64,000 nucleotides of DNA from Dulcicalothrix desertica PCC 7102 (GTDB taxonomy: Bacteria > Cyanobacteriota > Cyanobacteriia > Cyanobacteriales > Nostocaceae): the NCBI RefSeq assembly GCF_003991905.1, contig NZ_RSCL01000001.1, forward strand, positions 124,001 to 188,000, written 5' to 3'. A program made the position numbers and the translations under genes. Of this stretch, positions 56,080 through 57,503 are shown piece by piece; positions within the stretch are counted from its first letter, which is position 1; each line of letters starts with the position of its first letter. The notes beneath the pieces were generated by a model. The model was not told where the DNA came from, ran no database searches, and saw nothing but the letters and a program-made list of their open reading frames with translations.

Positions 56080-56356
56080 ATATAAGTCGATGCGTCGATA
56101 ACGTTGTGCAATGGATGGTTAATAGGCGCCGCGCTTTCCACTCAATCGATGCTATGAACATATCTTACTTACCCTGGTGGTTGCCGATTGACTACTACCT
56201 ATTATCTATAAAGCTTTACTTCACTAAGCTGTACTTTACAGAATAAACACTATTTTTTTTAATGATGCTCATATATTGACGAATGCTGTTATACCCTGCT
56301 AAATTGTAAAGGATAGGATTATTATAAGTTTTTGCAACAATCTAATCAATGATACA

Positions 56357-56362
56357 TACAAT
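56357..56362 (+). promoter_or_regulatory. Possible promoter (-10 TACAAT) before the structured RNA
   Basis: TTGCAA (56332-56337) and TACAAT (56357-56362) are 19 bp apart, slightly wide for a sigma-70-type promoter. Transcription would start near 56369 and include the structured RNA that follows. The call rests on sequence resemblance only. Confidence 0.35.
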
Positions 56363-56368
56363 CAGCTA

Positions 56369-56472
56369 CTTTTATTTTTGGCATCGGGTGGTTCACTGGG
56401 AGTGAATGACGTTTCCACATGGAAATCACCCAGTGAACCGCAGACTAGATGTTCTGCGGTTTTTGTTTTTTT
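56369..56472 (+). ncRNA. Candidate structured RNA with its own terminator (sRNA or 5' UTR element)
   Basis: GGTTCACTGGG (56390-56400) pairs perfectly with CCCAGTGAACC (56429-56439). The 28-nt interior contains a small hairpin, TTTCC/GGAAA (56412-56425). The stem touches a terminator, CCGCAGA/TCTGCGG plus T-run (56438-56472), and two bases (56438-56439) are claimed by both stems, so they compete at the edge. It could be a standalone small RNA or the first of two switches in the DAHP synthase leader, whose leader ATG is only 24 nt away. It matches no RNA family I recognise. Confidence 0.55.
56438..56472 (+). terminator. Intrinsic terminator upstream of aroF leader peptide
   Basis: CCGCAGA (56438-56444) and TCTGCGG (56453-56459) form a 7-bp stem, followed by TTTTTGTTTTTTT. 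Strong by shape. It ends the structured RNA before the leader peptide. Confidence 0.85.
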
Positions 56473-56495
56473 GTACTTCTATTAATTTGTTCGTC

Positions 56496-56561
56496 ATGGC
56501 ATACCTTACAAGCTGGTTTTACGGATTTTATTTTTGGTTCGGATATCCTCCGGAGCAATAG
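56496..56561 (+). CDS. Aromatic-rich leader peptide of the DAHP synthase gene
   Basis: A 21-codon frame, ATG to TAG, whose product contains the run WFYGFYFWFGY. Of 21 residues, 2 are Trp, 4 Phe and 4 Tyr. It lies just upstream of a perfect terminator and of the DAHP synthase gene. Its last codons (CTCCGGAGCAA, 56548-56558) are the left arm of a possible antiterminator. A stalled ribosome on scarce aromatic-tRNA codons would leave that arm free, and a ribosome at the stop codon would cover it. This is the arrangement of classical amino-acid attenuation. No Shine-Dalgarno sequence is seen. Confidence 0.8.
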   Translation: MAYLTSWFYGFYFWFGYPPEQ

Positions 56562-56615
56562 GCGCGTCATGATGACAAACTTTTGCCCGGAGTATTAACA
56601 CTCCGGGTTTTTTTT
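56548..56615 (+). promoter_or_regulatory. Attenuator: antiterminator/terminator switch for aroF
   Basis: Terminator: CCCGGAGT (56586-56593) pairs with ACTCCGGG (56600-56607), then eight Ts. Antiterminator: CTCCGG-A-GCAA (56548-56558) can pair with TTGCCCGGAG (56583-56592), ten base pairs with one bulged A. It uses up the terminator's 5' arm. The left antiterminator arm overlaps the last four sense codons of the leader peptide and abuts its stop codon. The two structures are mutually exclusive. Confidence 0.8.
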
Positions 56616-56645
56616 GACTTTCACACATATAAACAACATCTTGCA

Positions 56646-57503
56646 ATGAATAACGCTAAACTCGCTGCTAAATCAAACCAACAACAATCTTTAGTACAAA
56701 TCTCTGATAATGTAACCTTCGGAAGAGAAGAAATAATTATTATTGGTGGTCCCTGTGCGGTAGAAAGTTACGAACAAATGGAAACCGTAGCAGAAAAACT
56801 CCATACTTCCCCTGTAAAAGCATTACGTGGTGGAGTTTACAAACCCCGCACATCTCCTTACGCATTCCAAGGTATGGGTGAAACTGGGTTGAAAGTGCTA
56901 GCAGAAGTAAGTCACAAATATAATCTACCTGTAGTTACAGAAGTAATGGCGATTTCACAAATCGAAGTTATAGCTGCTCATGCTGATATGCTGCAAGTAG
57001 GCAGTCGCAACATGCAAAACTTCGATTTACTTAAAGAACTTGGACGTGCAGGTAAACCAATTCTACTTAAACGCGGTTTAGCTGCCACAATTGAAGAGTT
57101 TGTCATGGCAGCAGAATATATTTTAAGTCACGGCAATTCTGATGTTGTACTGTGCGAACGCGGTATTCGCAGTTTCGATAACTATACTCGTAACGTATTA
57201 GACTTAGGCGCCGTAGCAGCACTCAAACAAATTACACATCTACCAGTTATCGTAGACCCATCACACGCTGCTGGTGGACGCGAACTAATAGCACCATTAT
57301 CACGTGCCGCAATTGCATGTGGCGCCGATGGATTAATAATTGAGTGTCATCCAGTTCCAGAAAAATCAGTTTCCGATGCACAACAAGCACTATCTTTAGA
57401 AGAAATGATTGATTTAGTTCACACATTAGTACCAGTTGCCTTCTCTGTCGGACGCAAAATATCTAATAGAAAAGTGCTGAGTAGAAAGTGCGCTCATTAC
57501 TAA
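56646..57503 (+). CDS. aroF: 3-deoxy-7-phosphoheptulonate (DAHP) synthase, type I-beta
   Basis: 285 residues. It condenses phosphoenolpyruvate and erythrose 4-phosphate, the first step of the shikimate pathway to Trp, Phe and Tyr. Motifs are IIGGPCAVES, ALRGGVYKPRTSPYAFQG, LQVGSRNMQNFDLL, ILLKRGLAATIEEF, PVIVDPSHAAGGRELI and IIECHPVPEKSVSDA. The enzyme is the short KDO8P-synthase-like type, without an ACT or chorismate mutase domain, so feedback by fused domains is not expected. ATG 56646 is after the terminator, whereas an in-frame upstream ATG-less extension lies inside the terminator. The last residues (KVLSRKCAHY) come from a repeat. Confidence 0.95.
   Translation: MNNAKLAAKSNQQQSLVQISDNVTFGREEIIIIGGPCAVESYEQMETVAEKLHTSPVKALRGGVYKPRTSPYAFQGMGETGLKVLAEVSHKYNLPVVTEVMAISQIEVIAAHADMLQVGSRNMQNFDLLKELGRAGKPILLKRGLAATIEEFVMAAEYILSHGNSDVVLCERGIRSFDNYTRNVLDLGAVAALKQITHLPVIVDPSHAAGGRELIAPLSRAAIACGADGLIIECHPVPEKSVSDAQQALSLEEMIDLVHTLVPVAFSVGRKISNRKVLSRKCAHY

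Follow-up and report, generated by a model that had tools for sequence, protein, structure and literature searches.

How might a cyanobacterium restrain a DAHP synthase that carries no allosteric domain? This question is raised by the aroF gene in a stretch of 64,000 nucleotides from Dulcicalothrix desertica PCC 7102 (hereafter the window). The window AroF is a type I-beta DAHP synthase core, with TIGR01361 and PF00793 both over cut-off. A match to PF18152, the ferredoxin-like regulatory domain, was not found in it, in agreement with a sequence-only reading of this DNA, which had described an enzyme without a fused regulatory domain. The same reading had placed a leader-peptide attenuator before the gene. 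Comparison with relatives supports such an attenuator, but there are two in series, not one, since a second unit of the same type, with its own frame, antiterminator and terminator, adjoins the earlier-noted unit on its upstream side (Table 1). We consider it highly probable that the aroF leader consists of two ribosome-mediated transcription attenuators in series that would sense charged aromatic tRNAs, as judged from sequence comparison and folding models. The direct support for this lies in the anatomy of the leader, its conservation, its covariation, its linkage to aroF and a switch point that can be located in silico.

Table 1. Features of the aroF leader and gene (positions in the window)
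Feature	Position	Strand	Evidence
Predicted sigma-70 promoter, extended -10 (TTGACG, 18 nt, TGC before TAAATT)	56276..56305	+	promoter scan
Leader peptide 1, MIHTISYFYFWHRVVHWE, 18 codons, aromatic run YFYFW	56349..56405	+	sequence; 78/78 sequences
Antiterminator 1, 5' arm GGTTCACTGGG, within end of ORF1	56390..56400	+	11-bp helix with 56429-56439, covariation
Antiterminator 1, 3' arm CCCAGTGAACC, last bases are part of terminator 1 5' arm	56429..56439	+	helix, covariation
Intrinsic terminator 1, hairpin 56435-56462 and U-rich tail	56435..56472	+	terminator scan; pairing over 45 sequences
Helix over leader 2 start codon, competes with antiterminator 2	56486..56500 with 56566..56579 (after leader 2 stop)	+	minimum-energy fold, covariation
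Leader peptide 2, MAYLTSWFYGFYFWFGYPPEQ, aromatic run WFYGFYFWF	56496..56561	+	sequence; codon table, 76 sequences
Antiterminator 2, 5' arm CTCCGGAGCAA, at end of ORF2	56548..56558	+	duplex energy; orthologous helix supported
Antiterminator 2, 3' arm TTGCCCGGAG, overlaps terminator 2 5' arm	56583..56592	+	duplex energy, covariation
Intrinsic terminator 2 (GCCCGGAGT..ACTCCGGGT, then Ts)	56585..56615	+	terminator scan; pairing over 45 sequences
aroF, DAHP synthase, type I-beta catalytic core only, 285 aa	56646..57503	+	TIGR01361 and PF00793 over cut-off

What had been read from the letters of the downstream unit held up. Translation confirmed a 21-codon frame at 56496-56561 with ten Trp, Phe or Tyr codons, and six of the 18 residues of leader 1 are aromatic as well. 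The end of the second frame does pair with the 5' arm of the following terminator (CTCCGGAGCAA with TTGCCCGGAG, one bulge), the region having a duplex energy of -18.5 kcal/mol, and the antiterminator 1 region has a dG of -26.2 kcal/mol. The terminator with eight Ts that had been claimed after leader 2 was found at 56585-56615, where nine pairs and a loop of six (56585-56608) are followed by the Ts at 56608-56615.

For comparison among named organisms, one genome per species was scanned and the 80 closest loci were kept, a set that is biased to close relatives and in which Nostoc PCC 7120 is not named. Three loci with upstream DNA of only 102, 47 and 67 bp (L015, L033, L059) were dropped, leaving 77 relatives beside the window; the window AroF shares 98% identity with its counterpart in Calothrix sp. 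PCC 7716. All 78 sequences contain both frames, complete with start and stop codons, and both T-tailed hairpins when hairpins are recounted with at least eight pairs for terminator 1 and at least seven for terminator 2, one mismatch allowed and four Ts in eight. A stricter terminator scan over 500 bp upstream missed terminator 2 in L050, L058 and L066, and it also missed the leader of L078, which is more distant. The patterns used to find the frames required aromatic residues and were widened or supplemented by hand for six loci (L021, L024, L057, L078, L080, L082); in the end, they cost no locus that had enough DNA. Over the 78 sequences, leader 1 has four to eight aromatic residues and leader 2 seven to 13.

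The predicted promoter would serve both leaders, with a predicted start about 36 nt upstream of ORF1 (median over the 78 sequences, 41 nt). A TTGA-type -35 element with a -10 element at 16-19 nt scores at least 9 in 77 of 78 sequences, a figure that comes with no chance control, and in all 20 sequences listed a TG stands before the -10 element and the spacing is 17-18. Promoter-like sites in the aroF upstream stretch are no commoner than in shuffles (7 versus 8.4). None of the 78 sequences has a Shine-Dalgarno sequence for leader 1; for leader 2 one is found in 66 of 78, but it is absent from the window.

At the codon level, all 78 sequences have the aromatic core of leader 1 together with a start and a stop codon. 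Each of its five aromatic positions holds an aromatic residue in 72 or 77 of 77 sequences, and each of the seven positions of leader 2 does so in 75 or 76 of 76. Synonymous Tyr codons differ among the sequences (for example TAT in 56 and TAC in 20), and 13 of the 15 non-synonymous variant codons in the aromatic cores still specify an aromatic residue, types being counted here and not events. The codon after the aromatic run of leader 1 is variable (F 51, R 10, Y 7 and others, of 77). These patterns have to be weighed against the reading that functional small proteins rich in aromatic residues are made from the frames, with the hairpins serving only to separate genes. Such proteins would go well with the conservation of the frames and with gaps that are, by eye, mostly multiples of three (the exception, in the window and L008, is a one-base gap towards the end of leader 2). 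However, the end of leader 1 is invariant in its codons, GTT, which pairs with the terminator arm, and TGA, in the same stretch, each occurring in 77 of 77 sequences; the arms covary; and in L137 and L145 the frame stops directly after the aromatic run. Hence, we give this reading hardly any credence.

A second alternative is nascent-peptide arrest of the TnaC kind, in which the terminator would be controlled by a ribosome that a specific peptide stalls in response to free aromatic amino acid. The strong conservation of peptide order in close relatives (SWFYGFYFWPR; YFYFWxRVVHRE) is what such a mechanism would lead one to expect, but distant members keep the aromatic content and neither the order nor the residues after the run: the run recurs there in altered order, as in MSRYFYFYFFWTRECPG, MTVHSAQNWFFGFFYTGTGSG and, by eye, in CNFYFWFFYWFG of G174, so that the conserved arrest-peptide sequence of TnaC-type systems is not what is found here. 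Moreover, induction by an abundant amino acid would have the wrong sign for a biosynthetic gene. We regard arrest by the peptide as very unlikely, and return to attenuators that would sense charged tRNAs.

To see how far the leaders extend beyond close relatives, 386 evenly drawn Cyanobacteriota genomes were used, in 38 of which a protein search found an aroF orthologue. The identity in these 38 is at least 69%; after a break, G343 follows with 62%, and the others have at most 57% among the matches listed. Covariance models were built on 45 of the 78 sequences, similar ones having been removed, and each was searched in all 386 genomes. The leader 1 model was matched in 38 genomes, 37 with an orthologue and G030 without one, and the leader 2 model in 36, every one with an orthologue. 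The latter count omits six weak matches in genomes of one family, f31 (G079, G086, G090, G092, G132, G142; E 0.003-0.007, 72-112 nt), which are probably due to chance and would raise it to 42 of 386. Among the 38 orthologue-bearing genomes, 35 have both leaders, two leader 1 alone (G116, G170), one leader 2 alone (G143) and none neither. An ORF search does recover an aromatic second frame with a terminator in G170; in all, 37 of 38 genomes have a readable aromatic frame for leader 2 (by eye in G174), the exception being G116. The comparison of orthologous leaders that the sequence-only reading had proposed as a check thus came out in its favour, with leader 1 in 37 and leader 2 in 36 of 38 by covariance model. 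The matches lie on the same strand as the aroF match and shortly before it, at 61-340 bp for leader 1 (36 of 37) and 18-177 bp for leader 2 (35 of 36); the exception for both is G382, where the gene is split by an insert. The named and evenly drawn sets overlap, leader 1 being identical to one of the named set in four of 37 fetched loci.

Three loci are unusual in other respects. The insert that splits aroF in G382 (L151, G382:C1:3950300-3958000) comprises 5836 bp between 16-bp direct repeats (TACGCTTTCCAGGGAA) and carries a 425-aa PF00589 integrase near one repeat; we take it to resemble the excisable elements of heterocyst formers. At L152 (G030:C48:71000-74600), leader 1 is kept, but the locus lacks leader 2, the aroF start and the end of terminator 1. 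The downstream DNA looks by eye like an aroF remnant; this is probably a decaying copy. Finally, the aroF match at G042:C1:3292643-3293467 contains one TGA, with both leaders present, and because of this internal TGA the copy may be broken or the sequence in error.

The covariation of the arms was examined over the 45 sequences. Antiterminator 1 with its inner hairpin has 95.4% of its cells paired, with 11 cells changed on both sides versus 1.6 in shuffles, and antiterminator 2 has 94.3% paired, with five such cells versus 1.2. For terminator 2 the figures are 97.3% and 16 versus 4.3, and for the helix over the leader 2 start codon 80.6% and 23 versus 10.9, and terminator 1 is paired in 98.6% of cells with little variation. 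Some measures do not exceed chance: the count of pair types in the case of antiterminator 1 (reached by 207 of 500 shuffles), and for antiterminator 2 two of five measures, namely pairs with both-sided change (136 of 500) and pair types (318 of 500). Sliding antiterminator 2 by +1 or +2 equals or beats some of the change measures, at 60% and 25% pairing, respectively. A free consensus fold of unit 1 consists of a local hairpin and terminator 1, with the antiterminator not chosen and both-sided change in none of 21 pairs, and in the fold of unit 2 four of 13 pairs change on both sides.

In the evenly drawn set, the sequences' own arms pair in 382 of 407 cells for antiterminator 1 (37 sequences; both-sided changes at four of 11 positions) and in 297 of 324 cells for antiterminator 2 (36 sequences; three of nine positions). 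When the 3' arms were permuted and their placement chosen anew, own-arm pairing was reached in 0 of 500 permutations for each antiterminator, and the same holds for either one in the distant loci alone (19 and 18 sequences); these results are not probabilities, because permutation does not preserve relatedness. Covariation of the two stems had been suggested as a check by the earlier reading, and it was seen in the antiterminator arms as well as in terminator 2, which also varies on both sides.

Chance was considered for the window itself. The 141-nt leader-2 stretch folds better than 200 of 200 dinucleotide shuffles (z -4.6), and for the 96-nt stretch with terminator 1, one of 200 shuffles is equally good (z -2.8). 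The best leader ORF, which for the shuffle comparison was scored in a TTG-extended form, has the top aromatic score of 1467 ORF ends (8-40 aa) in the window; of 5000 dinucleotide shuffles of 56310-56645, seven yield an ORF matching its aromatic richness and two yield a pair of ORFs matching both leaders. Terminator-like sites are not rare per se, with four in 3 kb versus 2.2 expected in shuffles. Each leader covariance model has one convincing match in the organism's own genome. At the Rfam gathering score, no T-box or other catalogued family was matched in the window or in six relatives, and sub-threshold matches in 56250-56660 to snR77 (E 0.25) and anti-hemB (E 0.036) are far below the cut-offs and were taken as chance.

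How would the two units work? We infer that the leader is translated, that ribosomes stall in it, that transcription terminates in vivo and that the whole responds to aromatic supply. In each unit, a ribosome would translate the short frame with its run of aromatic codons. With ample charged tRNA-Phe, -Tyr and -Trp, it would reach the stop codon and mask the frame end, and with it the antiterminator's 5' arm; with the frame end masked, the terminator hairpin would form and transcription would end. Under aromatic shortage, the ribosome would stall in the run, the terminator's 5' arm would be taken up in pairing by the free frame end, and the polymerase would read through. Since aroF would be made only past both terminators, the two steps should multiply.

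This scheme was modelled by setting the ribosomal A site on each codon and folding the free nascent RNA to the end of the terminator's 5' arm; the values are equilibrium folds of a partial RNA and not kinetics, and full competition with the 3' arm lies outside the model. For leader 2, the arm is held upstream with a mean value over 78 sequences of 0.92-0.94 on the aromatic codons, falling to 0.63, 0.25 and then 0.08-0.14 up to the stop. For leader 1, the means begin at 0.66-0.69 over aromatic codons one to three, drop to 0.50 at the fourth and 0.18 at Trp, reach 0.03 one codon later and then lie at 0.17-0.25. For leader 2 of the window itself, the value drops from 0.89 to 0.55 at the final Phe of the run, with 0.23-0.36 thereafter and 0.27 at the stop; for its leader 1, the value is down to 0.01 after Trp, comes back up to 0.33-0.45 on three later codons and is 0.06 at the stop. 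With footprints of 9-17 instead of 13, applied to the 26 of 78 sequences with a standard leader 2 length, the step shifts by up to two or three codons and remains near the end of the run. The model thus suggests that both leaders switch close to where their aromatic runs end.

In the evenly drawn set, leader 2, with G343 counted in, has 0.87 in mid-run and 0.17 at the stop, versus 0.45 with shuffled upstream sequence. Leader 1 has 0.56 and 0.24 versus 0.44 and is not clearly above its control, because only part of the terminator arm lies within the antiterminator. That the control fails to set leader 1 clearly apart would suit a different role for unit 1 (56349-56472), namely that it is mainly a free-standing small RNA or the mRNA of a small protein and that unit 2 alone regulates aroF. 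Counted from the predicted start, the RNA released at terminator 1 would be about 150 nt long, and the catalogue of predicted small RNAs of Nostoc PCC 7120 has many of 100-200 nt, some with predicted small ORFs, in the accessible part of that source (PMC4734099); the RNA ending at terminator 1 may be one of the unnamed predictions in its supplement, given there without interpretation. However, the aromatic run, antiterminator and terminator of unit 1 are laid out as in unit 2, the promoter scan of the window lists none on the plus strand between the two units, both units accompany the same gene in 35 of 38 genomes, and the sole leader 1 without an orthologue, that of G030, adjoins what by eye is an apparent aroF remnant. 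We therefore hold a separate role for unit 1 to be unlikely and keep to two attenuators acting on one gene.

Without a ribosome, the nascent fold is estimated at equilibrium to favour the antiterminator, with 0.98 for leader 1 and 0.73 for leader 2, and therefore translation would be needed for termination. The value of 0.73 also speaks against the idea that the helix over the leader 2 start codon strongly blocks the antiterminator when no ribosome is present, and this idea was discarded. The enteric principle of stalling and antitermination, invoked by the sequence-only reading, is supported as far as the layout goes, but the ribosome-free RNA may behave unlike the trp model.

The genome contains three paralogues of the enzyme. 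Two of them (L001, L003) carry PF18152 and the third (L002) is of the aroFGH type, and in the 600 bp upstream of these three genes no ORF of 8-45 aa with at least four and at least 20% aromatic residues, as would mark an attenuator, was listed. Control at the leader may replace allosteric control of the domain-less DAHP synthase. Directly before the L001 gene there are, by eye, three tandem copies of a repeat of the AAACCCCCGTAAGGGCGGGTTAACGAAATATC type, preceded by a reading frame that by its appearance resembles trpB.

A simpler form of the leader occurs in G343, which belongs to another class of Cyanobacteriota and whose genome (94% complete) gave no match to the photosystem II reaction-centre family PF00124. 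There, a single leader (MKRFYYFSFYPNALRC) with a terminator and an antiterminator of -17.1 kcal/mol precedes the gene for a 62%-identical, core-only DAHP synthase (L153, G343:C1:1425852-1426902), and its modelled switch falls from 0.83 to 0.08, with 0 of 30 shuffles as high. The principle may be old in the phylum because this single-leader form occurs in G343, one genome in which inheritance and transfer are not separable. Tentatively, and with more doubt than confidence, we propose that the tandem same-signal attenuators form a multiplicative, steep gate and a stand-in for the missing allosteric domain, the principle being old in the phylum and the second unit having been added later and kept.

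A survey of 2016 states, in the part available, that there were no reliable data on an attenuation mechanism in cyanobacteria (PMC4833913). A conserved, covarying and gene-specific example at aroF would place leader-peptide control in Cyanobacteriota and would point to a way in which a DAHP synthase may be restrained when it has no allosteric domain. The aroF leaders would offer a ready test case in engineerable strains, and for the engineering of aromatic products it would matter that aroF would be throttled at the RNA level in cyanobacteria carrying them. Among the literature matches listed, from a search whose scope leaves out most subscription papers, no report of this aroF leader was found, nor did word searches within papers give a passage on it; the attenuation mechanism is thus of a known kind, and its tandem same-signal layout was not met in the literature searched.

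The known kind is represented by the trp, phe and his attenuators of enteric bacteria, in which a short frame with runs of end-product codons is followed by an intrinsic terminator and by a competing antiterminator that depends on stalling. The aroF leader resembles them in its frame of product codons, its intrinsic terminator and its competing antiterminator. Two aromatic-rich frames and two intrinsic terminators are found before the gene, and an antiterminator that would be freed by stalling and exclude the terminator is seen in silico for both, less strongly for leader 1. The aroF leader differs in having two complete units before one gene, with all three aromatic amino acids in each run, and in standing before the first enzyme of the common pathway in another phylum. 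In an attenuator of the E. coli trp type in the narrow sense, untranslated leader RNA terminates, whereas the equilibrium estimate suggests that untranslated aroF leader RNA may read through.

Closest in its target gene is the uORFC-13-1 motif upstream of aroF in Acholeplasma, itself a prediction, for which the accessible description gives 24 representatives with a predicted frame containing Phe codons and an intrinsic terminator (PMC8632094). It shares with the leaders described here the upstream frame with Phe codons and the intrinsic terminator before a DAHP synthase gene, but is a single unit with at least one Phe codon, and the same part of that source describes no Tyr/Trp run, second unit or antiterminator (PMC8632094). 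The tandem arrangement, in turn, has a counterpart in the mgtCBR leader of Salmonella, where, according to the part of the report available, tandem attenuators with two frames sensing ATP and proline act additively (PMC3641672). In both cases two short frames lie in one leader RNA and each is tied to stem-loop control of transcription (PMC3641672, in the same part). However, the frames of mgtCBR read different signals, as described there (PMC3641672), whereas both aroF frames are aromatic-rich and each has its own intrinsic terminator.
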